DNA of 19,021 nucleotides, from NCBI GenBank assembly GCA_002197995.1, contig NGZR01000022.1:1-19021 (forward strand), read 5' to 3'. A program made the position numbers and the translations under genes. This DNA is from Gaeumannomyces sp. JS-464. Taxonomy: Eukaryota; Ascomycota; Sordariomycetes; Magnaporthales; Magnaporthaceae. The first letter of the stretch is position 1; each line of letters begins with the position of its first letter. Below, one piece after another: positions 1 through 19,021 of the stretch. The notes under the pieces are model-generated. The model was not told the origin of the DNA. It was given only the letters and a program-made list of their open reading frames with translations, and did no database searches.

Positions 1-63
1 GACCACTGACACTACGTTTACGGTCTGTTACTTTTTCCGTTCACACCTCGGGTTTACCCTTAC
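1..63 (+). tRNA. trnL(uag): tRNA-Leu(UAG), first pass, 5' end missing
   Basis: The window opens inside the D-arm side of this tRNA. The anticodon loop reads TTTAGGT on a stem AATAG/CTGTT, giving anticodon UAG. It is followed by a T arm with loop TTCAACT and the 3' acceptor strand TTACCTT, discriminator A. The complete copy is on the - strand at 8510-8608. Confidence 0.75.
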
Positions 64-518
64 ACTTACTACGTCTACGGACACTTTTTTTACTCTACTA
101 CACACTCCTTTACCACTTTACACTTACACACTCACTGCTTACGTACCTTCTACCGACACGTACGCTGACCCTTTTGGTTTGGTTGCTACTGACACTACAC
201 GACACGCACCACGCACGTACCTTCGTACCTTCGTACCTTCTACACTACCGTACCTTCTACACTACCGTACGCGACCTTCGTACCTTCTACACTACCGTAC
301 GCGACCTCCGTACCTTCTACACTACCGTACGCACACCACCACACACACTACACGTGACTACACACTACGACTACGACCTTTACACCACTTACACACTACA
401 CACACCACACGTGACGACTACTGTTGTACGACCTACACTGGGTACACGTCACTACACGTTTTTGACTACCTTACCACTACTGACGTGTTCGACACCCGCT
501 CCACACCACTACACTGCC
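64..518 (+). repeat. Intergenic spacer with TACGAAG / CTTCGTA repeats
   Basis: About 64-140 is plain AT-rich spacer. From about 141 to 335 the collapsed text has a hairpin unit (TACTTC-TAC-GAAGTA), one copy of a dispersed unit containing GGTTGCTATGAATAAGAAGC, and then short tandem CTTCGTA and CTTCTAATACGTAG units. From 336 to 518 it is AT-rich with no gene that I can see. The second pass repeats this region at about 8053-8410. Confidence 0.75.
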
Positions 519-611
519 GGACGGACTACTACGTTCACACTACGGTACGACACCGTCTGTTCGTGGCTCACGACACGGTTTCTCTGTTCACACGTCACGA
601 CGTACTCCTCC
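519..611 (+). tRNA. trnH: tRNA-His(GUG), first pass
   Basis: Collapsed sequence folds as a cloverleaf: acceptor GAGGATA/TATCCTC, D stem GTTC/GAAC, T stem CTCTG/CAGAG with loop TTCAAGT. The anticodon is GTG. The base before the acceptor is G (519) and the discriminator is C (611), the extra G-1:C73 pair that marks tRNA-His. Oddities: position 33 is C instead of the near-universal U, and pair 31-39 is U-U. Both passes agree on these bases (second copy 7956-8052). Confidence 0.88.
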
Positions 612-712
612 CTTACGTGCTTTCTTACTACTCCTTTGCTACCGTACTTACGACACGTACCGACACGTACACGCACACGCCTACGTACACTACTTTACAC
701 TGTACCTACACT

Positions 713-802
713 TTGCCTTTACGTTTACACTGGTACGACACCCGTACTTTTTCTACACACACTACCTTGTTTTACGTTCGACACTCTGGACACGGGCACA
801 CG
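713..802 (+). tRNA. trnR(ucu): tRNA-Arg(UCU), first pass
   Basis: Collapsed cloverleaf with acceptor TTGCCTT/AGGGCAA (one G-U pair), D arm GTTT/GAAC, anticodon stem GTATT/AATAC with loop TTTCTAA (anticodon UCU), and a T loop TTCGAAT. Discriminator G. It lies between trnH and trnM, with a short repeat-bearing spacer before it. Second copy at 7753-7851. Confidence 0.87.
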
Positions 803-975
803 ACACACTGTACACTACTTACTACTTACTACACACACACACACACACTTACCTGCTTACACTTCTACGCGACACGTACCTTCGTACTACACACGTACAC
901 GCACCGACACGTACACGCACGTACACACCTACTACTTACACTACCTACTACACACTACACTTTACACACGACTAC

Positions 976-1069
976 GTTACGGGTACGTTTACACTACGGT
1001 TACACACACCTTTACACTTTCACTACCGTTACACACACTGACGACACTTCGACTTTTCTCCCCTACGCT
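976..1069 (+). tRNA. trnM: tRNA-Met(CAU), elongator-like, first pass
   Basis: Collapsed cloverleaf: acceptor GTTAGGG/CCCTAGC fully paired, D stem GTTT/AAAC, anticodon stem TTAAT/GTTAA with loop TTCATAC (CAU), T stem GAGAA/TTCTC with loop TTCGATT. A paired 1-72 position argues against the initiator. It ends about 10 bases before the nad2 start codon, the usual trnM-nad2 junction in filamentous ascomycetes. Second copy at 7499-7599. Confidence 0.88.
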
Positions 1070-1079
1070 ACACTACTAC

Positions 1080-1588
1080 ACTGCTACCTACACCACTCTA
1101 CTTCTACCTTACTACTTACACTTTCTACACTTCTGTACACCACTCACACGACACGACGACTACTACGCTACTTCTTTACTACACTACGGGTACGCTACTA
1201 CACTACGCTTTGTTGTACTTGTACTACTTGCTTGACACACTACGTTACGCTTACTCACACTTTTGACACTACACACGGTACTTGGTTTACCACTGGTGGG
1301 TTGCTACTACTTACACTACACTACTACACCACCACACGTTTTTCACTACTACTTTACTACTACTACTACACGTACTACTTACACTACACTACCACACTTA
1401 CACTACGTTTTTACTCCTCGACACACACGTTTGACTCTCCACGACACTACTGCACTCTTTACACCACACACTACTGTTACTCACACACTACACACTTTAC
1501 ACTTACTTACTACGACACCTACACACACTTACTACACCACACACACTGGGGGACACCACTCTTACACTACTTACTACGACGTACTCCT
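1080..1588 (+). CDS. nad2: NADH dehydrogenase subunit 2, exon 1 (first pass)
   Basis: Membrane subunit of respiratory complex I in the mitochondrial inner membrane. Collapsed, the frame opens with ATG at 1080 and reads MLLTSILLILISNSV, then RRDIAILYNR, GIGLHGGLL, NITQVFHIFI and FYPRKVWSPEY, ending at IIEYP before the intron. These are the N-terminal blocks of fungal mitochondrial nad2, about 120 codons. A single-base frame slip after GGLL interrupts the frame here; in an essential gene, and with the arms differing by indels elsewhere, I take this as read error. The exon ends in T at 1588, as group I 5' exons do. The second pass of the same exon is 6980-7490. Confidence 0.9.
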
Positions 1589-1900
1589 GACACCACGACT
1601 ACACACACTTACCGGGACTACACACCTGTCACACACCTCCGGGGACACCTCCTACACACGCTTTGACTACCCACACTCTGGACACACACCACTTTTCCGC
1701 GGTGGGTGACACTTACACTTACTTCACTGTACACGGTACACCACGTCACACACGACTGACTTCTTTTACTTTTACCTTACACTTGACGTACTACACTACT
1801 TTACTGACGACTGTGTGTCTCACGGACACTCCTCACACGTACGTACGCTACCTACACTTTCACTTACACACGCGCACACGCACACGCTCTCTTGACACAC

Positions 1901-3459
1901 ACTGGACCACACTCGCGGACTCTACACGTCACACTGACTGCTTACACACACACTTACTTGTACACACACGACGCACACCGACGTACGACCGGCACGTTGA
2001 CCTACTTACACGTCACTTACTGCACTTTACACTACGTTTACACGGTGTACCTCTTACGACACGACTTCGACACACGACACTTACCTTTACTCTGGACTCC
2101 CTCTCACGTGCTGCGTTGTGTACACCGCTACACACGACTACCACACACTTTTACACACTACACACCGCTTACTACTTCACTCACCACGCACACACGCTTA
2201 CACCACCACGACACACCCTTACACACACGTGTTACACACTCTTTTGTACACACACGACTGGTTTTACGTTACACACTCCTTGACTTTGTACACCCGGTTT
2301 TACCCGACTGGACGACTGGTTCACTTTGCTGTCTCTACTACACCTACGACACACACACACACGACACGGACACTACGGACTGACACACACACTTGTTCCT
2401 ACTGTTTACCTACTTGGGCTACGACTACACACACACACGACTTTACGACTCTTTTACGTGCACACACTTACACACGCTTTTTTACACACACGGTACACTA
2501 CTACTACCACCACGTACCTACACACGGACACTACGTACTACTTACTACCACGTACGGGTCTGTACACACACGACCACTACGACACACACGTACCACTTTT
2601 ACCCTCACTTTTGACTACACACTTCCCTTTACGTTACCTACACACACACTTCACACACGACTTTTACCACTTACTTTACACGCACACTACGTACCTTCTT
2701 ACTGGTACACACACGGACGACACCACCACACGACCTCTACCCTGGTTTACTTACACACACACTTTCTCACTTACACACACGTTACACTTTACACACTACA
2801 CACGGACTTACCCTGCACGCACGTACACACACGACACGACACTTTCCTGACTACTTCACACCCTGCTACTTTTACCCTGACGCTTACACTACGCTGGCGC
2901 ACCGCCCCTTACGTTTTACACTCCTACACTTGGGTACGCACGGACTTTCACCTGCACGACACGGTTCTTTTTTACTCTCCCTTTACTGCACACACTGACG
3001 ACACACACGACACACGCACGGACTACTGCTACTACACGTTTACGCTTTCTCCTTACACGCCACACCTCACTACGACGACTACTTGACACTTACCTACGAC
3101 TGGACCTTGCTACTACTTCTTACGACACTGCGGACACTACGTGACGACACTACTCACTCACACTCGACGACCGCACGCTGACACTTACACTTCTACACCC
3201 ACACACTCTGACACGACTTTACACACTACACACACACTTACTCCCGCTACTTGACACACACACACTACTACACTTTACGCGGGTACTACACACTTACTTA
3301 CGACTTTTGACACACGACTTTACACACGACTGCACTCTTTACTTACGTACCACACACACACACACTGCACTTTACACCTCCTGACACGGTGTACGCACTT
3401 ACACACACACACACACTTACACACGACTGCGACTGTACTACACACGACTACACTTACAC
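1901..3459 (+). CDS. LAGLIDADG homing endonuclease in nad2 intron 1 (first pass)
   Basis: Intron-encoded site-specific DNA endonuclease that spreads its intron; some family members also help splicing. Collapsed, the leader reads MDNRGSKSMML, then VKEQRVDGSW, a block common in fungal mitochondrial intron ORFs. Two LAGLIDADG motifs follow: NPWFVTGFTDGDGSF near 2290, and PNWVAGF followed by AEGSFFISLY near 2930. After the first comes HFDKFPLVT, after the second GYAISLAFSLSQ and KSEDLNK, ending in a TAA at 3455-3459. About 380 codons, with Trp encoded by TGA. Several one-base slips break the frame in this pass. At some of them the second pass (5173-6676) reads the frame intact, so these are most likely read errors, not decay. 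The exact start is uncertain: the frame may run in from the exon. Confidence 0.85.
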
Positions 3460-3461
3460 TT

Positions 3462-3728
3462 TACTTGTGTGCTCCGTGTTTCGTACACGGACACGCTACA
3501 CACACCCACCTGCTTACCTTTCGTACGCGCTTCTTACTGACACGTACCTGTTACCGACACGTACACGGACACACGCACGTACGGCTCCGCCTGCGTACGC
3601 GCTACCGCGCTACCGCGCTACCTGCTACGCGACACGCACACCCCACACACGGGGTACGCACACCACACACACGTTTACTTTACGACACTTTGTGACGACT
3701 GACGGGACTACACACCACACTTACACCG
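3462..3728 (+). repeat. GC-rich repeat cluster at the 3' end of nad2 intron 1
   Basis: Collapsed, the stretch holds CTGCTTACTTTCGTAG, TACGAAGTAAGGAAAGCAG, a run of GCTACGC units, and CCCAAAGGGG, all GC-rich against an AT-rich intron. The elements belong to the same family as the clusters in the tRNA region. The last 60 bases, up to the G at 3728, look like the intron's 3' end. No gene seen. Confidence 0.7.
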
Positions 3729-3948
3729 CTACACTTTTACTTACTTTGTACACTTACCTGGTGCTACTTTTTTTACACTGTCACACCTACACTGACTTTA
3801 CACTTTCGACTTTTTTTACGCACTACGACACTTACCACACACGTTACTGGTTTGTACTTTACTTACACGTACCTACTTTACTACGACACACCTCGGACAC
3901 TTTTCTACCTACCACGGACGGACTTACACTTTACTTTCTTACTTGGGT
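3729..3948 (+). CDS. nad2: NADH dehydrogenase subunit 2, exon 2 (first pass)
   Basis: Continues nad2 directly from exon 1: LILLFVITGAIFLMSTND, then LISIFLA, ELQSYGLYLLSTIYRNSE and FSTTGGLIYFLLG. This is the most conserved block of fungal nad2 and contains membrane segments of the complex I antiporter-like subunit. One A is missing in the codon after FLA in this pass; the second pass (4671-4917) has the A and keeps the frame. The 3' boundary after the GGT codon at about 3948 is inferred from the expected protein and from the T-then-G rule. The remaining exons are not in the window because the text turns back inside the next intron. Confidence 0.88.
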
Positions 3949-4325
3949 GCCACACGTGGACGTGGGACTCCCTCTACTACTTTGTGCCACACCTACTTAC
4001 CCACACACCTCCGGGGACCGCCTTACACACGCTTACTGACTACCTACACACCGGTGCTTGACACACACGCACTTACGTGGCTGACACTTACACTTACCTC
4101 ACGGTACTACGTACACCACACGTCACTACACGACTGACACGGACACACCTGACACACTACGGTACACTCGCGGACTCTACACGTCACACGTGACTACACA
4201 CACACACTTACCTTGTACACACACGACGCACACGACGTACACTGGTACGTACTGTTTGACTTACTTTACACCTACTGTCACACACCCTACACGACTGTAC
4301 CTCTACACACGTTACCACTCTACAC
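3949..4325 (+). other. Group I intron in nad2 (intron 2), 5' part only, first pass
   Basis: After exon 2 the collapsed text leaves the nad2 protein and enters a block CAAACTCCGGGGACCGCC then TTAAAGC, close to the core of intron 1. A second endonuclease leader begins inside it. The intron is cut at the turning point near 4325, so its 3' part and exon 3 are absent. The same piece is read back at about 4341-4670. Confidence 0.75.
4133..4325 (+). CDS. Second LAGLIDADG endonuclease, N-terminal leader only (first pass)
   Basis: From an ATG at 4133 the collapsed frame reads MKETEIGNRGSKSSDK, LLVKEQ and then, after slips, a probable R-V-N-G-S and LRCTL. The blocks NRGSKS and VKEQRV match the leader of the intron 1 gene, so the two are paralogues. 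The LAGLIDADG motifs themselves lie beyond the turning point and are not in the window; the family call rests on the leader alone. Frame slips are present in both passes. Confidence 0.6.
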
Positions 4326-4341
4326 CACGGACGACTCTTTA
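4313..4341. other. Turning point of the fold-back
   Basis: Collapsed, the arms ACTCTAAAGTTA and TAAATTTAGAGT flank about 18 bases containing AGATCT. Left of it the text runs along the nad2 sense strand; right of it, along the antisense strand. Agreement between the arms is poorest within about 100 bases of this point. There is no adapter-like sequence that I can recognise in the loop. Confidence 0.85.
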
Positions 4342-4670
4342 CACACTTTACGACGTACACTACTTACACTTACACTACACACACTACCTACCACTTTACC
4401 TCGTTGCTCTTTTACCACACGTACACTGTTTTACTTACTCACCTTGACCTTACGACTCCGCGACTTACCCTACTTTCACGTTTCCTTCACTCTTACTGAC
4501 CTTGTTACCTACTACCCTGACGTACACTTACACTTCACGCCACCTACACTGCTTTTTCACACGCACCCGTTTACGTACTCACTACACGCTTTACACGGCG
4601 TCCCCGGACGTTTGGTACACTACGTTGGCACCACACACTACTACGACGGGACTCCCACCTCCACCTTGGC
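4341..4670 (-). other. Group I intron 2 of nad2, 5' part, second pass
   Basis: Reverse complement of 3949-4313 after collapse. It contains the N-terminal leader of the second endonuclease up to its ATG at 4491, and the core block TCCCCGGAGTTTGG on the opposite strand. It adds independent base evidence, for example the Arg and Asn codons of the VKEQRVN block. Confidence 0.75.
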
Positions 4671-4917
4671 ACCCCACACTACACGACACACTACACACTT
4701 ACACTCCTCCTGTACGTACGACACACACTTCCGACGTTTCTACTACACACTACGTACCTTACACTACACACTACCACACACCCACTACACCTTTGTACAC
4801 TTCTACTTGCTACACACACACACACTCGACACTTACACACTCACTTACGTTGACCACTTACACACACACACACTACGCACCCACGTACACTTACCACACT
4901 ACACTACAACACTTACG
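4671..4917 (-). CDS. nad2: nad2 exon 2, second pass
   Basis: Same exon as 3729-3948, read on the other strand. The codons for FLAIELQSY are in frame here, which resolves the missing A of the first pass. The first of the two A's that lack a following C is inside this exon (4908), in an A run that the first pass reads as four T's on the other strand, so that A is real and only its C is missing. Confidence 0.88.
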
Positions 4918-6979
4918 CGTTACACTTGTTGGTACTCCCTCACTCTCACACACACTTCTACACTACACACTTTTGTGTGCTACCCCTTTGGGGTTGCTTC
5001 GCTACGCACGTACGCGCGTACGCGCGTACGCGCTACCGCACGGCGGACGCCTACCTGCTTTCCTTACCTTCGTACACCACGTACCTTCTACACGACACGC
5101 GCTACCGACACGTACACGCACGTGGTTTTACGCTTTCCTTACCGACACACCCGGACGCACCACACACTACACTTACACTTACTCTTTTACTACCACTCGC
5201 ACTCTTTACTTGTTTTTACTTACACTGCTACCACCTTCACGGACGTTACACACTGCACTTTTACTTTGTACCTACACTACACGACTGCACTCTTTACACA
5301 CTCTTTCACACACTCTACACTACACTTTTACTACCCCGCTACACACTACTACTTTTTCACACTACGCGGGACTTACACTTTTTTACTTTACACACTCTTC
5401 ACGACTTTGGTTACGACACTTACACTTCACGCTGCGTCTCGACTTTGACTGACTACTTCTCACCTACTTCCGCACTTCTACACGACACTACTACGCACAC
5501 GTCCACTCTACGTACACACTACTCTCTACTGACTGTTGGCTTACACGGACGACACACGCTACACACCTTACTACGCACTACTCCTGCTTTTCTTTTCTCA
5601 CTTTGCACTACACACGGGACGACTACACACACACACACCCTTCTGCACGTGACTACACACTCCTGCTACCCACACTTACGGACTTACACACACCTACACG
5701 GGGCGTGCGCCACGCTACTTACACGCTCACGGTACACACTACGCACGGTTGACACTACTCACGGACACACTTCTTCTTTTACCTGCTGCACGGTACACTC
5801 CTTTACTTTACACACTTACACCTTTTACACTGACGACACACTTTTACACTACACACCACGGTACGACGTCTTGTGTTCTCCTTTTACCCACTACACGACA
5901 CGTACCTACTTTGCTTACACACTACACTGTACACACTCTTTGACACTTTTTTACGTACACCTACACACGGGACACTTTACTCACACACACTGACGGTACA
6001 CACACTGTACCTTTTCTACTGTCTTTTACCACGACCCCTACCTGTACTACACTACTACCTACTTCCTTTACGTACCTTGTGTACTACTACTTACCCTACT
6101 TTACACACACACACACGCTTTACACTTTGCACCTACACACACGACTACACACTCTTTTTACTCTACGCCCACACTACGTACACACCACTACGGACACCAC
6201 ACTTTTTCACTCCTACTTCCTTCTTTTTTCTACGTTACTACGACGACCACCACACACTGACACCCACTCTCCACTCGGTACACACACCCGGTTACACACA
6301 CTCACACGGACTTTACACACTACACACACCCACTCTTTTACCACACACGACTTTACACCACCTTTTACACGGTTTTCTGTGTTACACGCTTTGCTGTTGA
6401 CTGACACTACTACACGCGTTTACTTACACACACTTTGTACTCTTTACGCGTTACCACCACACCGCACGCACCTGACGACGGGACTCCACGACTACACACG
6501 TACACTTCTTTCGACACTCTTCTACACGACGTACCACCCTTACACACCTACTTACACACTGCACTACACTGACCTTACACTACGTCACACCTGCCGTCTA
6601 CCTCGTTGCTCTTTTACCACACTACACTGTTTTTACACGCACTCACTTGACCTTACGACTCCGCGACTTGTCCACTTTTTCACACACGACGACGCTTGCT
6701 TGCGCTTTACACTGACACACTTACGTACGCTACCTACCTTTGACGGACTTCCTGACGACCACCACCACTCTCACTACACACTTACTACCTCACTTACACG
6801 TACACACACTACACGACACTCACTCTTTTGACCTTGTTACCCTTACCACTGACACTACACTTACACTTCACCCACCCGCGGACACACACTGTTTTCCACG
6901 ACTTTGGTACTCACACACGCTTTACGGACGTTCCCCGGACGTTTGACCACGTTTACTCCCGTACACTTTTACTCTGTTC
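4918..6979 (-). other. Group I intron 1 of nad2, second pass
   Basis: Reverse complement of 1589-3728 after collapse, including the core block and the GC-rich cluster (about 4980-5155). Use the two passes together to build a consensus of the intron. Confidence 0.85.
5173..6676 (-). CDS. LAGLIDADG homing endonuclease of nad2 intron 1, second pass
   Basis: Second reading of the gene at 1901-3459. Here the leader reads SMMLKNIIVKEQRVDG without the slip of the first pass. The stop seen before NPWF in the first pass is absent (FYLNPW). The second motif reads GFITAEG, where the first pass lacks two bases. TGA is again Trp. Other slips remain, so neither pass alone gives an open gene, but the errors fall at different places, as expected of one intact gene read twice with noise. 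Confidence 0.85.
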
Positions 6980-7490
6980 ACGGACTACCTCTACTACACT
7001 ACTTACACGACTGTTCCCCCACTTTTGTTTTACACTTTTACGTTCTACTACACTACACTTACACACTTTACTTACTACACCACTACTTTGTTACACGACT
7101 GCACTACTTCTGGACGACTCACACACCTTTTCGACGGACTACACACACCTACGTTACACTTGTACTTACTTACACTACTACCTACACTTACTACTACTAC
7201 TACACACTACTACTGACACACACTTGTGTTACTACTTACTTACTACTACTACGCACACCCCACCCACTGTACACACCCACACTACCCTTTACTTCACACA
7301 CACTTGACTACACGCTACACCTACTTTCACACGCACACTACTACCACACTACCACACACACGCTACTTACTACGCTACCCCTACTTACTACACGACACTA
7401 CGCTACTACTCTCTTCTTGACTGTTACCACGACACTTACGACACACTTACACTACTACACGTACGACACTACGACTGTTACGTACGCACT
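6980..7490 (-). CDS. nad2: nad2 exon 1, second pass
   Basis: Second reading of exon 1 from the ATG at 7490 down to EYP at 6980. The order MLLTSILLILISNSV, RRDIAILYNR, GIGLHGG, FYPRKVWSPEY is the same as in the first pass, with different small indels. Confidence 0.88.
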
Positions 7491-7498
7491 TACTACTT

Positions 7499-7599
7499 AC
7501 GCTACGGGGACGACACACACTCGACACTTCTCACTTTTTACACCGTACTGACACACTTACACACGTTTTACACCCTACTTACACACCTACCCCTACACC
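7499..7599 (-). tRNA. trnM: tRNA-Met(CAU), second pass
   Basis: Reverse complement of 976-1069. Same acceptor, anticodon CAU and T arm, with about one extra T in the anticodon stem region as a read difference. Confidence 0.85.
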
Positions 7600-7752
7600 T
7601 ACTCTTTACACACTTACTTTACTACGTACTTACACTACTACGTTTTACCTGCTTACCTTCGTGCTTACCTTTACTACCGACACGTACCTTCGCTACGACA
7701 CTTACACGCACGTACACTTTTTTTTACTACACACTACACTACTTACCACTTT

Positions 7753-7851
7753 CTTGCCCTTCCACGACTTCGACACCTACACACACCACACGTACTTTTA
7801 CGACACACACACTACCGGTTCTACCCACTTACACACCTACACACGGCACAC
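7753..7851 (-). tRNA. trnR(ucu): tRNA-Arg(UCU), second pass
   Basis: Reverse complement of 713-802; the cloverleaf and the UCU anticodon are identical in both passes. Confidence 0.87.
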
Positions 7852-7955
7852 ACTTACGTACCACTTACACACTACTTACCTACGGCTTGCTTACCTTCGT
7901 ACCTTCTACACTACCGTACGCACACACGGTACTACACGACACACGCACCTACACG

Positions 7956-8052
7956 GGACGGACTACCTCTGACCTTGACACCACGACGACACACCTTCTG
8001 ACGCCACCGACACCACGACCGTTCTACCCTACTTGACACCTACTACTCCTCC
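7956..8052 (-). tRNA. trnH: tRNA-His(GUG), second pass
   Basis: Reverse complement of 519-611. The unusual C33 and the U31-U39 mismatch are read again, which makes them unlikely to be random read errors. G-1 and C73 are also confirmed. Confidence 0.87.
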
Positions 8053-8509
8053 GGCACTTACTGTTGGACGCGGTTCGACACCACCTCACTACTGTACACG
8101 TACTCACACACACACCTTACTGACCTTACCCCACTTACGTCTACCACCACTACTCTCACCTTGTTTACTTTACACTGTTACACACGTCTACTCTACTTTA
8201 CTCACCTTACTTTTGTGTTTGCTACCGTACTTACGACACGTACCGGACGTCGCTACCGTACTTACGACACGTACCGACACGTCGCTACCGTACTTACGAC
8301 ACGTACCGTACTTACGACACGTACCGACACGTACCGACACGTACCTGCTGTGCTTCTTACTTTCACTACGCACACCACACCACCCACACACGGTCACGCT
8401 ACCTTCGTACGACACGTACCTACACGCACTGACTTTACACTTACACACTGTACACACGGACTTTACTACGACTACACACACACACACACTTCCTACGACC
8501 TACTACACT
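8053..8509 (-). repeat. Spacer with TACGAAG repeats, second pass
   Basis: Reverse complement of the spacer at 64-518. The densest tandem part, about 8218-8345, alternates GCTACGTATTAGAAGTACG and CGAAGTA units. No gene seen in it. Confidence 0.75.
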
Positions 8510-8608
8510 TACACGGTACACACCGACGTTGACACCGGACTACACACACTACACCACGACCCTACACACCTACTTCACTGTCTACCCACTTCCACTCACT
8601 TACCCCTT
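8510..8608 (-). tRNA. trnL(uag): tRNA-Leu(UAG), complete copy
   Basis: Complete version of the tRNA cut by the left edge. Collapsed acceptor AAGGTAA/TTACCTT (one extra G read in the 5' strand), D arm containing GGAATGGTAGAC, anticodon stem AATAG/CTGTT with UAG, T stem ATCCG/CGGGT with loop TTCAACT. The fold-back arm ends here: sequence beyond about 8600 is read once only. Confidence 0.75.
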
Positions 8609-8627
8609 ACTACACTTACGACACTCT

Positions 8628-8723
8628 TTGCCCACGACTACACGACTTCGACACCTTACTACACACACACACTACTCTTCACGTACTTTCACCTCTACCC
8701 ACTTGACGTTACCACTGACGCAC
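8628..8723 (-). tRNA. trnF: tRNA-Phe(GAA)
   Basis: Collapsed: D stem ACTC/GAGT, anticodon stem AAATA/TATTT with loop CTGAAGA (GAA), T stem ATAAG/CTTAT with loop TTCGAAT, acceptor TGCTCA.../CTGGGCA with one inserted T before position 8. It sits between trnL(UAG) and trnA, its usual place in filamentous ascomycetes. Confidence 0.82.
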
Positions 8724-8759
8724 ACTGACACTGGACTACGACTGACACCACGACTACTG

Positions 8760-8853
8760 TGGACGACACACCGGGCACTCGACACCCGGACCACACACAC
8801 ACTACTGCACACACACTTGCTACTACCTACCCCACTTACTACCTACTTTCCCC
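8760..8853 (-). tRNA. trnA: tRNA-Ala(UGC), probable
   Basis: Collapsed acceptor GGGGAAA/TTTCTCC (one mismatch), D stem GTAT/AGTAT region, and a T loop TTCGATG. The anticodon region reads CAATTTTTGCATATTTTTG and has at least one read error. As TTTGCAT the loop gives UGC (Ala) with a well-paired stem; as TTGCATA it gives GCA (Cys). The position between trnL(UAA) and trnF favours Ala. Confidence 0.62.
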
Positions 8854-9721
8854 CGCTACACGCGCTTACCTACTTTCACTGCGACACGCACGTACACGCG
8901 CTTACCTACTTTCACTGCGACACGCACGTACACGCGCTACCTGCCACGCGACACGCACACCCCCACACGGGGTACGCACCCCCGGTACTTTTTTTTACGT
9001 ACCTTCTACCGACACGTACGCTGACCCTTTTGGTTGCTACTGACACTACACGACACGCACCACGCACGTACCTTCTACGTACGTGTGCTTACCTTCTACG
9101 TACGTGTGCTTACTACTGACACACTACACGCGCGTACTTACCGACACGTACGTGTTACCGACACGTACCGCCCCCTTACTTTACACTACGACACGTACAC
9201 GCACCTACCACTCCGTTACACCTACGGCGGGTACTTTACTCTTACACACGTTCCCTGCACTACCGACACGTACCGCTGCTTTCTTACCTCCGTTGCACGC
9301 ACGACACGTACGGCCGTACCACCTACCGACACGTACGACCACTGCACTACCTTACCACTCACCTACCGACACGTACCTACACACACACACACGACGTACA
9401 CTACGTACCTTCTTACTTTCACTACGTACGCCACGGCCCACACCTACTTACTTCTTACTTACGTGTACGCTTTACGCTTGCTCCTTACCGACACGTGCGT
9501 ACGCTACGCACACTACACTTCACTACCTTCGTACGTACACGTACCGGTACACTCTACTGCTTACCTTCGTACGCACCACACACCCACACACTCACACACT
9601 CACACACTACACACACTACACACACACACACACCTGGTGACTACACACACTTTTTACGACTACACTACCCCTACTACTCCTACGTACACTCACACACTAC
9701 CCTCTCTCCCACTGCGTACGC
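8854..9721. repeat. Repeat-rich intergenic region
   Basis: Collapsed, it has two direct copies of AAGCGCTTACTATTTCATGC, a CCCCAAGGGGTAGCACCCC block, a second copy of the dispersed unit with GGTTGCTATGAATAAGAAGC (about 9024-9070), paired TTCTAGTAGTGTGCTTA units, and many TACGAAGTA hairpin arms. From about 9590 to 9721 it is AT-rich. I see no protein gene or convincing tRNA in it. Confidence 0.7.
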
Positions 9722-9828
9722 TACTCCGACACACACGGACCTCGACACCCTTTACTGGCTACTTACACCCTACCACACACTTTTACACGTTTGTTACTGT
9801 CTACCCACACTTTCACTCACCTCGGACT
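9722..9828 (-). tRNA. trnL(uaa): tRNA-Leu(UAA)
   Basis: Collapsed class II tRNA: acceptor ATCCGAG/TTCGGAT, D arm with AAATTGGTAGACA, anticodon stem ACAAA/TTTGT with loop CTTAAAA (UAA), a long variable arm TAGGTTAATAGCC, and a T arm AAGG-TTCGAGT-CCTT. Discriminator A. The long variable arm is expected of Leu. Confidence 0.88.
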
Positions 9829-9829
9829 T

Positions 9830-9925
9830 ACACGGCTACACACGTGACCTTGACACCACCTTACGTACACGTACCTGTTACTGACGCACGTACTGCTTTA
9901 CCCACACTTACACGCTACTACGCCT
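9830..9925 (-). tRNA. trnM: tRNA-Met(CAU), elongator-like
   Basis: Starts one base from trnL(UAA). Collapsed D stem GCTT/AAGC, anticodon stem TACTG/CAGTA with loop CTCATAA (CAU), T stem AAGTG/CACTT with loop TTCAAGT. The acceptor pairs as AGGCATA if one base lost on the 3' side and a few disturbed bases near the 5' end are allowed for as read error. Confidence 0.78.
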
Positions 9926-10423
9926 CACCTACACTACACGCTGCTTACCTTACGTACACGCACCACACCTACTACTACGTTACCGACACGTACACGCTTA
10001 CCTTCGTACACCCACTACGCACACGTCTACTACACACACGCACTACTTCTTTACTTACACGGCTGCTTACCTACCGACACGTACCTACCTTCGTGCGACA
10101 CGTACCTTCGTACGACACGCACGCGCTTCTACCGACACGTACGCGTACCCCTTTGGTTTGGTTGCTGCTACTGACACACTACACGACACGCACCACGCAC
10201 GTACCTTACTACCGACACGTACGTGTACTCCTTTGGTTGCTACCTACTGACACACTACACGACACGCACCACGCACGTACCTTGCTTACTTTCACTACAC
10301 ACACGCGTGCTTTTGCTACCGTACTTACGTACCGTACTACTTACTTACGTACTTACGTACGTACCGACACGTACCGACACGTACCGACACGTACCGACAC
10401 GTACCTTCGTACCTTCGTACGGC
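9926..10423. repeat. Repeat-rich intergenic region with two dispersed-unit copies
   Basis: Collapsed, it contains two near-identical units, about 10148-10203 and 10228-10280, each with CCTTTGGTTGCTGCTATGAAATAAG-type sequence running into AAGCACAGCAGTACTT. It also has a run of five CGAAGTA units near 10365-10405 that meets two inverted CTTCGTA units, forming a perfect dyad. No gene seen. Confidence 0.75.
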
Positions 10424-10517
10424 ACGGCGGACTACTACGGACTTTGACACCCTACTACTTTTTGGTCACTGACGTCACACACACTTGTTACACCCACTTT
10501 ACCACTACACTCCGCAC
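10424..10517 (-). tRNA. trnfM: Initiator tRNA-fMet(CAU)
   Basis: Collapsed 5' TGCGGAT against 3' ATCCGCC: the 1-72 pair is T-C, a mismatch typical of initiator tRNA, while 2-71 to 7-66 pair. The anticodon region TTTTGACTCATGACCAAAA gives CAU. T stem ATAGG with loop TTCAAAT. The D arm is disturbed, probably by read error. It abuts trnE with no gap. Confidence 0.75.
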
Positions 10518-10610
10518 TTACGACCTACGGCACGGACGTTGACACCCTGCGACCTCACGCACTTGACACACGACGCTACTGTCTTTCCACCTACGACCGA
10601 CCTACACTCC
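10518..10610 (-). tRNA. trnE: tRNA-Glu(UUC)
   Basis: Collapsed acceptor GGATTAG/CTAGTCT (G-U pairs allowed), D arm TCTAGTGGAAAGA, anticodon stem TAGCT/TGCTG with loop CTTTCAA (UUC), T stem GCAGG/CCTGC with loop TTCAACT. Discriminator A. The 31-39 pair is U-U, as in trnH. It is close to the 3' end of rnl, as usual in this group of fungi. Confidence 0.83.
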
Positions 10611-10999
10611 CTACACGTACTTACTTACTACACACACACTACACTCCTTACCGACACGTGTACCTTCTTACTTTCTGCTACCGACACGTACCTACCGACA
10701 CTACCTACCGTACCTTCGTACGCACGTACGCGTACGTTGTACGCACACACGCACTGTTTACCTTACGTGCGTGCTTACCTTCTGTGCGTACGTGCACTAC
10801 GTACGCTTTGCTACCGTACGTACCGTACTGTACGTACCTACCTACTGACACACTACACGACACACTACGGCACTACCTTACTTACTGACACACTACTGCT
10901 GCGTACTTACGTACGTACCGTACTTACGTACGTACCGTACTTACGACACGTACCACGCACACGGCTTGCTGTACCTTCGCACTACACGTTACACTACAC
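10611..10999. repeat. Repeat-rich intergenic region
   Basis: Collapsed, it carries many short CGTAGTACG, GTATTAGTAGTACG and TACGAAG elements and two shortened relatives of the dispersed unit (CTATGAAATAAG near 10850 and TTATGAAATATG near 10885). No gene seen. Confidence 0.65.
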
Positions 11000-11095
11000 G
11001 CCCGGTGCACACGTACTCGCACCTTGCTTCTACTTGACTTACCACACACACCACACTTGCACTTACCTTTTACTGCTACACCTACGGCCCACGGG
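11000..11095 (-). tRNA. tRNA candidate, anticodon GUA or UGU
   Basis: Collapsed: possible D stem GCAT/ATGC, anticodon region ATTGTTTGTAAATCAAT, T stem GCAAG/CTTGC with loop TGCGATA, and 3' strand ACCGGGC. The 5' acceptor strand does not pair cleanly, apparently disturbed by the GC-rich palindrome next to it. A 7-base loop TTGTAAA gives GUA (Tyr) with a U-U at 31-39. The usual first tRNA after rnl in this group is Thr(UGU), which fits TTTGTAA less well. Confidence 0.45.
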
Positions 11096-11230
11096 GCCTG
11101 GTTCCCTACCGTACGTACGGGACACCTACACGCTGACACTACTACACACACACACACACACGACACACGACTACTACACACACACTACTTTACGTACACC
11201 TTACTACACACTTACGTACCTTTGTTCCTA
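11096..11230. terminator. Palindromic hairpin downstream of rnl
   Basis: Collapsed, 11099-11123 is GTTCCCTAC-GTA-GTAGGGAAC, a perfect 9-base-pair stem with a 3-base loop. Immediately left of it is GGCCC-A-GGGGCC. The rest, to about 11230, is AT-rich and includes a run of A's. The hairpin could be a processing signal or a mobile GC cluster; a termination role is only a guess. Confidence 0.4.
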
Positions 11231-11881
11231 CACACACTCTCTACGACTTCTTACCGACTACACACACGCCTACTTCTCGTACACTACTTACTACTTACCG
11301 TACTACTACTACACGACACTACTCTTACACGGTACACGCTTCGTGTCTACTGCTTTCACACCACCTTACTCTTTGACCTACACCTTACGCTTCCCTGCCA
11401 CTGCCTACTGCTACTCACTGTTACCTTACACGTGACACACGTACACACACTCCCTACTACTACACACACACTTGTTTGTTACTACTACACTACACACTTA
11501 CACTACTTGGGTACCACTACACCACACCACGGTACACACCCACTACGGTTACACTACACACTTACACACACACCGTTTTCGTACGACACTACACCACGTC
11601 CCCACTGTTCCTTTCGTACCTACGACTTACCTCCTTACTTACTACTTCTACACTTCCCTCTACGACACGACTACGACACACCCACTACCTGTCTCACCGA
11701 CCGTACTTTACACCCCACGCTCGTGTACACCTTTTTACACTCGACCGACACCACGTCGCACCCCTACCACTACGTTTCTGCGTCCACTGACGGACTACAC
11801 GTTACACGCCGACCACTCGACGGTGCCACACACCCGCGCACGTCACTTTCGCACCACCTCTTGCGCACACTTACGCCTGTT
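11230..11881 (-). rRNA. rnl: Mitochondrial large rRNA, 3' exon
   Basis: Collapsed - strand starts AACAGGCTAATTGCGCAAGAG at 11881, the segment after the omega site. It continues through ATCGAGGTGCCAAAC... style blocks: GATGTCGGCTTAAC, CGAGCTGGGTT, CGTCGTGAGACAG, CTAGTACGAAAGGAACATG and GCAGGGAAGCTAAGTTAG, then GCATAGACACGAAGC and ACCTTAAGATAT. These are the peptidyl-transferase, A-loop, sarcin-ricin-flank and 3'-end signatures of LSU rRNA. The 3' terminus is put at about 11230 by analogy; it may lie anywhere from 11230 to 11300. Confidence 0.9.
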
Positions 11882-12019
11882 CACACCTTGTTACTCACTA
11901 CACTACACACTACTTTCCACACTTCTCACCACACACTGGTTCACGACCTACTTTCTTCACTTTTACCTTACCTACTGTTTTACACTCGCTACTACTTTTT
12001 CTACCTTACCTACTTACGT

Positions 12020-12300
12020 GCTTGCTTCACTACCGACACGTACGGCTGGCTTGCTGGCTGGCTACCACGCTACCGCTACCTGCTACCGACACGTACCTAC
12101 TGTACCTTCGTACGTACCTTCGTACGCACGACACACTACACGCACGACACGTACTGCTTACTACTGACTTACGGTACGCACACGTACTACACGCACTACA
12201 CACTACACCACCTACGCGTACCTTTGTACGCCCTGCACACACGCACGGGCTACCGACACGTACTGCTACCTTCTTACGACACGTACGCACTACCACTACA
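12020..12300. repeat. TACGAAG-family repeats inside the omega intron
   Basis: Lies between the intron's 3' core and the rps3 stop. Collapsed units include TACTTCTTAGAAGTA, GCTTGCTGGCTGGCTAC and GCAGGGCTACGAAGTA, with several hairpins. No reading frame of note. Confidence 0.65.
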
Positions 12301-12308
12301 CACACACT

Positions 12309-14149
12309 CTACTTTACGCACGTACACTTCACACCCTTTTACCTGCACACACGCTCCACACCACTGACCGTTTTGACTGTACCTTACTTGACACTACCTG
12401 CACCACCTACGGTGACACGTGACACACCCCCTGACACACTTTACCACCACTGACTACACACCTTTACTACACGACACACTCTACTACTTTCTTACACCCC
12501 TCCTTTTCACTTTTACACTTTTACACACACACGACTCTACTCACGCTCTACACACCGTTTACGTTACACTCTCCCTTTACACCTTCACACACTCTACACT
12601 TCCACCTTACTACTTTTTACACTTACACTACGACACTTACACACACACTACGTACTTACTACTACTTCGTACTACACTTTTTACGACGTCTACTACTCTG
12701 ACTACTTGTACACCCCCGCTACCGACACGTGCTCCGCTACTTACACACACACCACACCACTTACTGACTACACACGACTCTTTTACACACACTACTTACT
12801 CTACACACCTACTGCACTACCTTCGTACGCGACACGCGTGCTTACGCACGCACGCACACCTGTTACTTACTCTTACTTACACTACTTACACCACTCTCTA
12901 CACACTTTACTTACCTTACTACGCACTCACACACTTTACCACGTACTTACACACTACTTCTACACTTCTTTCCTTACACTTTTACTTTTCACTACTGGAC
13001 ACGTCTACGCTTTACTTACACTACACACACTACTCCACTCACACACTTTACGACGGACTTACGCACTTACACACACTTCCTTACACCTTTGACTGACGAC
13101 ACTACTTTCTGTACACACACTACTCACCTACTTACTACCACTACACCACTACCTTCACACGTTTACCTACTACTTACACACTACCACACCTTTTTACTTA
13201 CTACACACTCTACCTACACTTACACTTTACCTTACACTTTGTACTACACACACACTTTTTCTTCACACACTACTACTTACTTACACGACTTACACGCTTT
13301 ACACTTTTACACTCTTCTACACTACACGTACTTACACTTCTTACACACCACACGACACACACTTTTACACACGTTTTACGTACACACTACTACGTACCTC
13401 ACCCTCTTTTTTGCTGTACGGACACGTCTTCTGCGTACTGCGTACGCACACGCACTGTTTGCTGTGACACACCACCCCACTCCTGCTGCTTTGCACGCAC
13501 GGGCTACCACGACACACACCGACACACACTTTTACGTTCACCTTACACCTACACGTGACACGACACTACTCCACTACACACACACACGACCACTACTTTA
13601 CACTACTACTTTACACTTTTTTACACTACACACGACTTTCCTTGCTTACTTACTACTGTACTACTACTACGTTACTACACGACGCTTTACGACACTTACG
13701 TACTGTTTTACTTTCACGGTTTACCTACACCACACACACTTGTTTACTACTGACTTTACTTACGTACTTACGGACGACTTGACTACTTTTGACCTTACTT
13801 GACACACTACACACACTTACTGGTTACACACACTACTACACACTTACACACGTACACTTCTTACACTTACTACTTACTACACACCACCTTGACACTCTAC
13901 ACACACCACGGACACACTTTTTACTTGTACTTTTGACTTACTACACACACTACTACCACCTACTTTTTTCACTTCTTTACGACTGCACGACACGGACACT
14001 ACCTTACGTTTCACCCTGTACGTACTTACACTTGACTTGACTTACACACACGGTACTTACACTTTGTACTTTACTTACTTACACTACTTTCTACTTACAC
14101 ACACTACCTACGACTTTACACTTTTTTTACGTACTTTGTGTGTGGCACT
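12309..14149 (-). CDS. rps3: Mitochondrial small-subunit ribosomal protein S3
   Basis: Component of the mitochondrial small ribosomal subunit, encoded inside the omega-site intron of rnl as is typical of Pezizomycotina. From a possible ATG at 14149 the collapsed - strand reads ...NNKYKLIPFNQSINTTGETKY, then a Ser/Lys/Trp block and Asn/Tyr-rich sequence. The C-terminus includes FEVKGRLTKRL, FTSPSVQYSISTSKR and SFAVKGWITAK, ending in TAG at 12309; the Trp is TGA. About 440 codons, within the usual range. One-base slips occur several times and cannot be checked because this part is read once. GC-rich inserts lie within the frame (about 12715-12860 and 13415-13510). The start codon is uncertain. 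Confidence 0.85.
13415..13510. repeat. GC-rich insert within rps3
   Basis: Collapsed, a GC-rich block with TGCTGCTTTGCAGCAGG (hairpin), AGCAAGCATGTTTGCT (hairpin) and CTTCTGCGTATGCG sits in a very AT-rich coding region. A smaller one, with CTTCGTAGCGAAGCG, lies near 12825-12850. They resemble the GC clusters known in yeast mitochondrial VAR1, which also encodes this protein. Confidence 0.6.
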
Positions 14150-14384
14150 ACACACACTTTCCTTTTGTACTTTACTTTACACACTTTACTACACACTACG
14201 TACACACACACACACACTGTTGGGTTTTACTTACACACGGACTTACTTGTTACACCACTTACCTCACCCTTACTACGTCGTTGACACCGTACCTTACTCT
14301 TACTTACTTACTTACTGTTACACGACTACACGCTTCGCTTCACACGTTTTCTTTACACCTTGCTACTACCTACCTACACGTACT

Positions 14385-14515
14385 TGTGCTTACCTACCTT
14401 CTACCGGACGTACGCGTACCCCTTTGGTTGCTGCTACTGACACACTACACGACACGCACCACGCACGTACCTTCGCTACCTCCGTACGACACGTACTGCA
14501 CTGCACTACACACAC
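14385..14515. repeat. Dispersed-unit copy near the 5' end of the omega intron
   Basis: Collapsed CTTCTACGGAGTAGCGTACC, then CTTTGGTTGCTGCTATG and AAGAAGCACAGCAGTACTTCG: a close match to the copies near 9024, 10148 and 10228. It separates the rps3 start from the 5' part of the intron. Confidence 0.75.
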
Positions 14516-14642
14516 GTACACTTCTTGACACACTTGACCCCACTACTACTTACACTACACTTACTACTTACTACTACTACTACACACGCTTACACGCTAC
14601 TACTACTACTACTTACACACCACTTGACACGGACCACACACC

Positions 14643-15780
14643 ACTCCCTACGCGTACGCTTTTCCACACACACTCCACACGACCCTTTCCTTTACTGTGT
14701 CTCGTGACTCCTACTGCCCCGCTTACCGCGACCTGTACACGACTTTGTTGTTACACTCACACACCACGTACACGGCACACGACTTACACGCCGTTACACA
14801 CCCTGGTCTACTACTGTACTACTCACCTTTACTTACTACACACTTACTTACTTACTGCTACGTCTTTTACGTACCTTCTACACACGTACGACGGTACGCA
14901 CACTACACTTTACTACACTACACCTACTACACACTACTTACGACACTACTACTTCACTACACTACTTACTTACACTACCTACACTTTCACCACACTACAC
15001 TTACACACCTCTTACCCTACACACACTACTTTACTACTTTACTACTTACACACACTACACACACCACACTACTTACCACTTTGACTTTTACCACTACACG
15101 ACTTACACACGGTTGCTTACTTTACGTACGCTTGCTTACTTTCTACCCCACACACGGGTCACGACACGCACGCGTACCTTCGTACGACACCACCCCACTA
15201 CACTTACACTCGTCTGTTACACACTTACCACACACCACACACACACACTACACTACACTACACACTACTTTACTTTACTTACTTACACACTACACTACAC
15301 TACACTACTTACGTTTACCACCCTACACCGACCACGCTCTGTCACTACTTCCGTACTACTCTACTGTCGACGCGACTACGCTTGCTTACTTCTACCCCAC
15401 ACACGGGTCACGACACGCACACTACACTTACGACTGTACACACTTACTTTGTTGGACCACACCCCACTTTACCTCTTTGTGGGGTCTGTGCCCCGCACTA
15501 CACACCTGTCTCCTACGCACACACTGTTCCCCTCTTACCACGGGTCTTACTTACTACTACACACCCACTTACACACGTCACACTTGTACTACACACCCCT
15601 ACACACTACACGACGCTTACCGCCTACTACACTACTACGTACTCCACACACTACACTACTACACACTTTCACACTCGCGCACTTACACTTACCCTTACTA
15701 CTTCTACACACACGTTGTCACCTACCTACTACCTCACACACACTTACGTACACCACGTACACACGCTGCACTACGGGTCT
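14643..15780 (-). rRNA. rnl: Mitochondrial large rRNA, middle exon
   Basis: Runs from AGACCCTATGCAGCTTTACTG at 15780 (E. coli about 2060 onward) to CGCTAGGGAT at 14643 (E. coli about 2449). Between them are GGGGAACATTTGCTAGGAGAC, GCGGGGCACAGACCCC and AAAGAGTAAATGGG, then GCATAGGATCACGAG. Longer than the bacterial segment: the variable part around 14820-15420 is AT-rich and holds two copies of a GC-rich insert. Read once only. Confidence 0.88.
15127..15420. repeat. Pair of direct repeats within an rnl variable region
   Basis: Two near-identical collapsed copies of GCTTGCTTATTCTACCCAAA followed by GGGTCAGAAGCA, at about 15127-15172 and 15379-15420, separated by about 200 bases of AT-rich rRNA expansion. 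Each contains the hairpin ACCC-AAA-GGGT. Confidence 0.75.
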
Positions 15781-15832
15781 GTCGACGACTACGGTCGTTT
15801 TACTTACCTACACACACTTTCCCCCTCTACAC

Positions 15833-15874
15833 GACACCCGTACCGTGCACACCTTTCACTCGCACTACCGGCTC
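15833..15874 (-). other. Group II intron domain V
   Basis: Collapsed - strand GAGCCGTATGCG, then ATGAAAGTTGCACGTACGG and GTTC. This is the canonical domain V hairpin with a GAAA-type loop and bulge, one of the most conserved RNA motifs. It is followed by a short domain VI-like stretch and the 3' splice site at 15781. Confidence 0.92.
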
Positions 15875-16129
15875 ACACGCACTTTACTTTTTACTTTACA
15901 CCTACTACACCTACCACACACTACTGCCACCTGACTCACACGTGGACCTCACTACACACCCACACACTACGACACTACCCTACACCACGACTACTACCAC
16001 ACCACTACCTGTGCTACCTCCTCACGCCTCTGACACACCGTGTGGACTTACTGACTTACACTTACGTTTTACACTTTACTCTGACTACTACTTGACTTAC
16101 TACTTACGTACTCTACACTACACTACTTG

Positions 16130-17284
16130 CTACTTCACTACCCTACACTTTGACTACTTTACTCACTTTCCTGTTTCCCCTCGGGACGTCCGACTGTGAC
16201 ACTTTTTTTACACCTCTACTTACTTACACTTTTCACTCTGACACTACTCTACACACTTCTTGACACGTTACACTACACGGGGTACTTACTCACACACACA
16301 CACACTTACTACCTACCCTCCTCTTGACTTACACTACACTTACACTCTACTTACACCTCTACCGACGACTTTTTACGACTTCACTTTACACACTCTTTAC
16401 ACTACTCACTACCTTACGGTTTTACGACTACACCCTACCACCCGACACACTACCTCTTTACACTACGCACTTCACACACCTTCCACCACTCGTGACCTGT
16501 TTTGACGCTACTCTCTACACGGTACGGACTTACACACCTACACTGTACACGTACACACGTTTCTACCTTACCACGTGTTGGCTACTTCTACCACTTGACA
16601 CACCACACCCTTCACCCACTCCACCACACACGGCCTGTACCTCACCGCACGGACTGTACACTTACACACACGACTACACTTTACTTTACGACTACGTTTC
16701 ACACCGCTCTTCACTACACGACTCTTTTTTTACTTCACTACCTGTTTTACTACACACACACGACACTCTTACTCTTTGTTCTTTCCTCCTTCGGACGCCA
16801 CGCTACCGCTTTTCTACACGTACACACACACTCTTACACACCTTACACACACACACATCCACACACTGCTTACGACACCCCACCTACACACGGACTACTT
16901 TACTCACACACACTGACGGTACTACACTACACTACTCACACTTACACACTCACGACCACACTTTACGACACACCGTTACACACTTTACTACTCCACTCTG
17001 TTTCCCTACTTACTCACACTACACCTACTGTTACCCGCACACTTACACACACACTTTTTACACACGCTACCTACACACTACTTTACGTGACACGTACCTT
17101 TTCTGTGTACACCTTTACACACACACTACGCACCTACACACTTTACTCCGTTTTTTCGTTGTACACTACTACTGCTACACACACTTACCCTTCCGCGTCT
17201 ACCACACTCCCTGTTACCTCACCACTACGGACTCCACACCTTTTCGTTGACTACTTTTGACACTGTTACTTTGGGTTTGTCACT
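16130..17284 (-). CDS. LAGLIDADG homing endonuclease in the rnl group II intron
   Basis: Two-motif DNA endonuclease of the LAGLIDADG family. From ATG at 17284 the collapsed - strand reads MTNPNNIQNINEKLDPM, then WVTGIVDAEGNFSIYYN (first motif), then GNIVIDNRETDGYKFNV and PHFDKYPLVGSKHLDFF. The second motif QAFVDGEGC is near 16640, then NAIKEYFGVGYLKPKYD and LKKFTSDSRG, ending at a TAG about 16130. Trp is TGA. About 280 codons. Several single-base slips are present and cannot be checked, because the region is read once. LAGLIDADG genes are known in a minority of fungal rRNA group II introns, where they replace the usual reverse transcriptase. Confidence 0.84.
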
Positions 17285-18095
17285 GTTCTTTTCTCTACTC
17301 CCGTTTTTTTTTCTTACACTCTTTACACACACGCTACCGGACGCCACTGCCTCTTTCTTACGCTACCACTTACACACCACACTGCGTACTCACCTTACAC
17401 GACACACGCCGGTACCACTCACACTGCACACTTTACCGTTACTACGTTTACACTACACACCACCCCACCTCTACACGTCACGCACTTCTTTCGACACTTA
17501 CGTCACTACACACCCTACTTTCTACTCACTTACCACACTACGACACCTTTCGCTTTTGACGCACTCCTTTACCCCCTACACTGTACTACTTTACACCTTC
17601 ACCACGTTACACACCTTCCTTACTACCGCTGTACTACACGGGCACCTACTGGGGCTTACCCTACGTTTACCTTACACACACACCCTTACACTTACTTACC
17701 TTTACGGACTCCTGCTACTACCGTACGGTTACACTACTACGACCCCACTTACACTACACACCACACCGACGACACTTGTTTACTACCACACTCACACACA
17801 CTCTACTTTTACACACTTTTTCTACCTGTACGACGACACACTACGACGCTCTACGACTCTACCGCTTCACGACCGCACGACTTCACCTTTACGTTACTCC
17901 ACTACGTACACTACTACGCTCACCCCCTTTACTCACACACACACGGCACGGACTTTTGTGGGCTTCACCACCACACACACACACACTTACCTCTTACACT
18001 GCACTGCCACCACTACACGCTCACGACTACACCGGGTTACTCTGGTGGGTTTTCACCACCACTTGTTTTACACGCACCTTACGCTACGTCGCACC

Positions 18096-19021
18096 TCTCG
18101 TACTCTACGACGGTACACACCTGTACTCTGCACCACGTTACTTCCACACTTTCACCTGACGTCACACTCACTACGACGACCACGCTGTTGTACTCGTTAC
18201 CACTCACTTCACTGCACACGACCCGCACTTACACCGGCCACACGGCACTTTCGCTACCCTTACGGACCCTCACCGTTACACGGCCGCCACTTCACTCGGG
18301 GTTTCCTGCACACCACCCACACACCCTTTACACACACTTTACGTTACTCTTCGTACACCCACGCCGACCTCGGGCACGACTTTCACCACCTCACACTACC
18401 TTACGACTTTACTCACTCTTTTGCACACACGTGCTTTGTTTTACACTTACACACACGTCGTACCACCACCTACTTTCACTGCTTCTTCCTTTTTACCTTG
18501 ACTACTACACTCACGACACTACACTGACGCCCTCCTTACTCCCTACACGTTACCGGTACGTTACTTTGCCGACGTTCCTTTACTGACTTGTTACTCTCAC
18601 TTTACCGCCTTCGTACTCCTCTACCTACGCTTACCTTGTTGCACGCTTACTACGGTACCGGTTGACCACCTTACTACTTTTCTTCACTCTTTTTACGTTT
18701 ACTTGGTCCACTACTTTACTGTCTTACTTACACACTACTTTCCTGCACCACCTTTTCACCTTACACACACACTGTGTCTTTTTACACTTTACACGACTTT
18801 CTCACTCACTTTTACACCTTCACGGTTACACACACACACTTACGACGGCCGTTACCTTTACCTTACGCCACTACACGCTTACACGGCGACGACGTACTAC
18901 ACACCTCTTTTACGTTACCTCACTGTCACCACTTACTCACCTTGACGTTACTACTTACTACACTTTTCTTACACACACACTACACGACACACACACTCTC
19001 ACTACTACACACCCACACCGA
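18096..19021 (-). rRNA. rnl: Mitochondrial large rRNA, upstream exon, 5' end outside the window
   Basis: Collapsed - strand signatures: GGCAAAATAACTACCGTAAC, GTACGACTTTTAATTAAAAC, GTGTGAAATCTGCCCGAG, AACCCCGATGAATGGCGGCC, GGTCCTAAGGTAGCGAAATG, CCGTTAATGCGGTCTTGCAT, ACTCAGTGAAATTGG and GTGCAGATACAG, ending ATACGAGA at the group II intron. These belong to domains III-V of LSU rRNA. The exon continues beyond the right edge; the far right is AT-rich and less sure. Confidence 0.88.

Follow-up and report, generated by a model that had tools for sequence, protein, structure and literature searches.

A C follows nearly every A in contig C15

The window analyzed here is the whole of contig C15 (NGZR01000022.1; 19021 bases) from the assembly of the fungus Gaeumannomyces sp. 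JS-464, which holds 53,005,781 bases in 34 contigs. Along its forward strand nearly every A is followed by a C, and this pattern overlies mitochondrial genes, including tRNA genes, part of a large-subunit (LSU) rRNA gene and a piece of nad2 (Table 1). A dinucleotide count places a C after 4753 of the 4755 internal A's (AC, 4753; AA, 1; AT, 1; AG, 0), and the final base of the contig is an A. The original prediction, made from the letters alone, had proposed a C after every A and had counted by eye two internal A's without one; the count bears out the rule, and the tally was exact (4908 and 16857). At 4908, the opposite arm of the palindrome described below likewise has four A's by eye, which means that a C is missing there and not that an A was added.

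Replacing AC by A throughout the window text, referred to below as collapsing, yields 14268 nucleotides (nt). The base after A is then A in 1658 cases, C in 744, G in 868, and T in 1485. The collapsed composition is symmetric, and runs of A match runs of T as in ordinary double-stranded DNA (2050, 670, 242, 87, and 26 A runs of one to five bases, against 1991, 757, 279, 101, and 29 T runs). In the raw window, the affected strand contains neither TAA nor TAG (0 each). Since these two codons cannot occur there, long false frames arise, with 38 frames of at least 120 codons, the longest of 502 codons.

The collapsed window is fungal mitochondrial DNA

Once collapsed, the window is fungal mitochondrial DNA (mtDNA). 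Thirteen mitochondrial tRNA genes were detected in the collapsed window and none in the raw text, in which no Rfam family reached its gathering score either. The collapsed LSU part (802 bases sent to blastn, corresponding to window positions 17641-18670) matches 5384 Escherichia coli records, and the three matches listed are 23S rRNA (73%, 2e-14, over 160 of the 802 bases). The same part in raw form, sent as a control, gave no blastn match to E. coli genomes. In addition, the nad2 piece matches the structure chain 7zm7_2 at 3e-15, with its Pfam match falling below the cut-off. Both an rRNA and a respiratory gene of fungal mitochondrial DNA are thereby present.

The tRNAs, LSU rRNA, and nad2 that the original prediction expected upon collapsing were all recovered, and its warning that any annotation of the supplied text would go wrong agrees with the empty searches of the raw window. 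The group II intron domain V that it named stands in part: a domain V-like hairpin of 34 nt with a folding energy of -15.8 kcal/mol is present, which we take to be domain V from its consensus. The proposed rps3 gene could not be confirmed, as three frames of collapsed positions 9250-10660 gave no Pfam match and are broken by stops.

In collapsed contig C3, the tRNA cluster is complete and reads Glu-Met-Met-Leu-Ala-Phe-Leu-Gln-His-Arg-Met, presumably the order of a filamentous ascomycete mitochondrial genome. The tRNA cluster, nad2, LSU rRNA, and intron pieces all resemble such a genome. The window differs from it in that the genes appear only after collapsing, residual deletions remain, and one end is chimeric.

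The rule measured on nuclear rDNA

The assembly contains a clean copy of some of the affected DNA. Contig C10 is a clean nuclear ribosomal DNA (rDNA) array, and contigs C16 and C19 carry the same DNA with the pattern. Clean rDNA repeats agree with one another at 99.98-100%. A set of 28 rules was tested, each inserting a single base on one side of a given kind of base. The rule A->AC converts the clean C10 rDNA to C16 at 98.23%, with 0 mismatches and 111 gap columns of 6263 (1 or 4 mismatches in alternative alignments of the pair), and the next-best rule reaches 79.6%. Among the rules tested, A->AC alone fits this conversion.

The residual differences between C10 and C16 are almost all losses (55 of 57 events), chiefly AC units missing from runs of A and C's missing from runs of C. 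Counted by base, C16 has lost 41 of 1261 A's, 16 of 1233 C's, 5 of 1475 G's, and 3 of 1031 T's relative to the clean rDNA; over the 5 kb of rDNA compared, this amounts to 3.3% of A and 1.3% of C. The recovery suggested in the original prediction, replacing AC by A, consequently does not restore the genome exactly: some A's and C's, mostly in runs, remain missing.

Spread across the assembly

Every contig was sampled over at least 800 bases (all N in C2 and half N in C10). The pattern is present in the sampled stretches of 21 of the 34 contigs; 12 are clean, including all nine that exceed 1 Mb, and one reads N. Eleven contigs show A->AC (C3, C4, C5, most of C9, C15, C16, C19, C22, C25, C26, and C27), and ten show the reverse complement, T->GT (C6, C7, C8, C11, C13, C14, C17, C18, C20, and C28). 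Eleven of the 21 affected contigs were judged by 800 bases only, and among these the share of sites following the rule is 100% in nine, 206/207 in C6, and 110/115 in C28. A search with a T-loop motif led to further affected contigs; the motif itself carries no information, since a control pattern matched too. The affected contigs sum to 656,082 bases, or 1.24% of the assembly, a figure that goes by the parts read and includes the partly clean C9. The earlier notion of a hidden genome under an A-to-AC substitution therefore holds in that a single rule conceals mitochondrial DNA, but not in the sense of one rewritten text, given the 21 contigs, the two orientations, and the clean rDNA beside them.

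Ten of the 21 affected contigs were joined as mitochondrial by overlaps and tRNAs after collapsing (C3, C4, C7, C9, C13, C14, C15, C18, C20, and C25), and C17 is probably mitochondrial as well. C16 and C19 are nuclear rDNA, and eight contigs have no assigned identity. Contig C28, where the share above counts T's preceded by G, has a GC content of 68% once collapsed, unlike mtDNA.

No clean copy of the window sequence was found in the assembly, although C2, which reads N where sampled, could hold one. One collapsed query matched only the affected contigs C13 and C7, at 75%, and another gave no match, which carries no weight by itself. C2 spans 144 kb and could hide a clean mitochondrial or rDNA contig. 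Searches of the assembly met no intact clean cox1 or nad1: for cox1 they gave only two broken fragments and for nad1 none. The cox1 fragments lie in contigs longer than 1 Mb, at C31 2170233-2170854, where a LAGLIDADG fragment adjoins, and at C33 374184-374543; both are likely old mitochondrial insertions.

The pattern follows the direction of reading

Contigs C16 and C19 represent A->AC versions of opposite rDNA strands (98.23% and 98.28%, respectively), and the T->GT rule reaches only 73% and 72% on the same contigs. The mitochondrial contigs behave likewise. C3 and C15 share 7.4 kb of mtDNA, with 96.6% agreement when collapsed and 65% when raw, and show A->AC on opposite strands of it. Over the stretch with the tRNA cluster, C15, C13, and C7 show A->AC on the strand opposite to that of C3. 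The pattern tracks the direction of reading and is tied neither to the genes nor to any fixed strand of the DNA. Both DNA strands are affected, each when it is the strand being read, as in an artefact; extra C's on one fixed DNA strand, as genomic C insertion or RNA editing would produce, were not observed.

A fold-back chimera at the window start

Collapsed positions 1-6396 form a self-inverted palindrome at 95.7%, and the raw text has no such self-match. Two other contigs of the locus, C13 and C18, continue for approximately 230 nt beyond the fold point without folding back (C18 in an 800-base sample), which marks the palindrome as a chimera of C15. The structure has the inverted arms, single locus, and short turn of a fold-back chimera, and C13 and C18 do not share the palindrome. 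For the first 6.4 kb, the collapsed text proposed in the original prediction thus does not give the native order.

The two arms show A->AC in one and the same reading direction. Had the DNA already contained the C's before one arm gave rise to the other by copying, their complements would be expected in the second arm. A model in which the C's are inserted at reading fits the arms at 95.6%, and two models in which they are copied in DNA fit worse, at 76.9% and 64.6%. The C's therefore arose at reading and not by copying, and the arm comparison weighs heavily against a physical insertion that preceded or accompanied the fold-back.

The window start resembles the fold-back read artefacts described in PMC12870357, with two inverted arms, one locus, and a short turn. 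Such artefacts are library or read chimeras that add no letters themselves, whereas here both arms have turned A into AC. Palindromes also occur in collapsed C25 (L013), C20 (L012 and L030), and C7 (L021), which suggests that fold-backs are frequent in the faulty reads.

Gradual onset and blocks of exceptions

Contig C9 passes from clean to affected gradually, over approximately 3 kb of colinear sequence. It is clean through at least 10.65 kb, and the share of A's without a following C in its clean part is 0.89-0.93. This share equals 0.927 at position 10401, 0.474 at 10860, 0.200 at 11201, 0.105 at 12001, 0.050 at 12801, 0.010 at 13500, 0.001 at 17276, and 0.000 at 33186. Five pieces from this series, the 141-base one at 10860 not among them, align with C25 at 95-97%, in the same order and all on one strand. 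Elsewhere, exceptions to the rule cluster in blocks of 2.7-9 kb (3.4% of sites in C17, 0.9% in C20, and 0.8% in C3), as single reads would produce. In C17, the exceptions also rise toward the upstream end, more weakly than in C9 but in a similar way.

A base-calling fault as the probable source

We consider it very probable that the pattern is an artefact and not biology, namely a base-calling fault that is coherent along the strand and affects a minority of single-molecule long reads. In these, each A event would have been reported as an A followed by a C, in the direction of the strand under reading. Faulty reads would overlap one another and not clean reads, and would therefore assemble apart into separate contigs. 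Only high-copy DNA, mitochondrial or ribosomal, would supply enough overlapping faulty reads. Clean mitochondrial reads were probably removed beforehand by matching, a filter that faulty reads would escape. The failure to find an intact clean cox1 or nad1 fits a pipeline that first sets mitochondrial reads apart by matching. For Benniella sp. AD185, the mitochondria are described as assembled separately from corrected PacBio reads with a Joint Genome Institute tool (PMC10507103). With less confidence, we suggest a detection channel common to A and C, with the tail of the A signal called as C. In the larger rDNA comparison, that of C16, the losses fall mainly on A and C, which would fit a common detector channel.

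Beyond this, we lean toward a single-molecule failure of a kind so far undescribed. The instrument would drift over approximately 3 kb within one molecule until every A becomes AC, with G and T calls nearly untouched; whole high-copy replicons would then assemble in a consistent false alphabet that survives into release, with TAA and TAG stripped from one strand. Among the papers listed in searches on inserted C, dyes, or base calling, we found no account of the exact pattern of one inserted C per A. A partial likeness is the nanopore miscalling of telomeres, in which TTAGGG is read as TTAAAA (PMC9414165): the error is tied to the strand under reading, the two strands go wrong differently, and the reads look real but odd. 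There, the miscalling concerns one repeat and a substitution, whereas here a neighboring base is inserted, in mitochondrial DNA and rDNA at large and across whole contigs.

Several points weigh against a base-calling fault or against details of it. The analysis rests on assembled contigs and not on raw reads or signals; the platform and the physical cause are inferred, and we leave the platform open. The shared channel would draw on two-color chemistry, with A and C in one channel on some instrument, a point that our literature searches did not confirm. The losses in C19, a small sample, follow a less clear pattern (A, 2/145; C, 7/199; G, 0/155; T, 3/170). Only C9 and C17 clearly show exceptions rising toward the upstream end, and C3 and C25 have slightly more exceptions downstream, which does not fit a simple onset at the start of a read. 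The fault was also not met in a second data set, as two A->AC forms of 16S motifs had 0 exact matches in GTDB contigs, and two long raw frames had 0 relatives at an E value of 0.001 among 5.8 billion proteins (for one of them, among a capped set of candidates). Finally, fold-backs were reported for nanopore DNA and hardly for the three PacBio samples studied (PMC12870357), which lends no support to the suggested shared channel.

A text operation that changed A to AC in some reads or contigs, through a script error or deliberate scrambling, is improbable. The near-perfect regularity of the pattern (4753/4755 in the window) and the 0 mismatches in the best rDNA alignment would suit it well, and both orientations would follow if a script had been applied to individual reads ahead of assembly. 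However, an onset spread over 3 kb would not be expected, yet it is seen in C9, and both the blocks with 0.8-3.4% exceptions and the base-specific loss of A and C would go unexplained.

We give hardly any credence to extra C's that are physically in the DNA, whether of cellular origin or introduced by a faulty polymerase when the library was amplified. As a rule, assembled contigs do reflect the DNA, but nothing beyond the text itself points this way. The same assembly contains clean rDNA, opposite strands are affected in different contigs, the palindrome arms do not inherit the extra letters (76.9% or 64.6% for copying against 95.6% for reading), and the tRNAs and rRNA come to light only in text stripped of the C's. 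Equally far-fetched are extra C's that are encoded and then removed from RNA, the mirror image of the C-insertion editing of Physarum mitochondria. Such removal would account for fungal mitochondrial genes that appear only once the C's are gone, but the pattern makes no distinction between genes of either strand, spacers, and nuclear rDNA, and the nuclear rDNA is also present in clean form.

As a probable base-calling fault, the pattern matters as a data hazard and not as biology. Gene annotation of the supplied text is wrong, and contaminant and organelle filters that work by matching would miss the affected contigs. The share of A's followed by C, taken per contig and per strand, would detect such contigs in any assembly.

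Table 1 Features of the window (contig C15), in window positions
Feature	Positions	Strand	Basis
C15 entire, C after each A with two internal exceptions	1..19021	+	
Palindrome arm 1, visible after collapsing only	1..4311	+	Self-match
tRNA-Gln, -His, -Arg, -Met, collapsed	419..1071	+	tRNA search
Frame with weak LAGLIDADG_1 match, collapsed	2499..3032	+	E value of 0.0018, below Pfam cut-off
Fold-back turn, 37 nt collapsed	4312..4363	.	Alignments to C13 and C18; unpaired turn somewhat longer by eye
Palindrome arm 2, colinear with C13	4364..8582	-	Self-match, C13 alignment
118-codon frame holding nad2 piece (o2), collapsed	4374..4844	-	Structure-chain and Pfam comparison
Exception, A without C, inside a run of four A's	4908..4908	+	Dinucleotide count; palindrome arms compared by eye
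Second, inverted set of tRNA-Gln, -His, -Arg, -Met	7498..8153	-	tRNA search
tRNA-Phe, -Leu(taa), -Met, -Met, -Glu, collapsed	8627..10610	-	tRNA search
Group II domain V-like hairpin, collapsed	15833..15874	-	Folding of 34 nt
Exception, A followed by T, ending a run of seven A's	16857..16857	+	Dinucleotide count
LSU rRNA stretch matching E. coli 23S rRNA (collapsed 13558-13717)	18112..18313	.	blastn

Other features of the window and assembly

The spacers of the collapsed window (collapsed positions 150-270, 6600-7150, and 7450-8300) contain, by eye, dense short palindromic repeats of the type TACTTCGTA / GAAGTA. The clean rDNA of C10 has a group I intron inside the nuclear small-subunit rRNA gene (L014 1535-1822). 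The RPA2 protein of the assembly indicates an ascomycete: among at least 120 relatives, those with names include Aureobasidium at 75% and Bionectria at 83% over 78% of the query.

The clean part of C9 has two portions of its own character. Positions 10401-10650 are clean mtDNA with a LAGLIDADG-like frame and run into the affected part. Positions 1-10000 (L023) are clean and, by eye, have inverted ends, a frame of 1079 codons with RNA polymerase-like motifs, and a DNA polymerase-like start. This segment looks like a linear mitochondrial plasmid.

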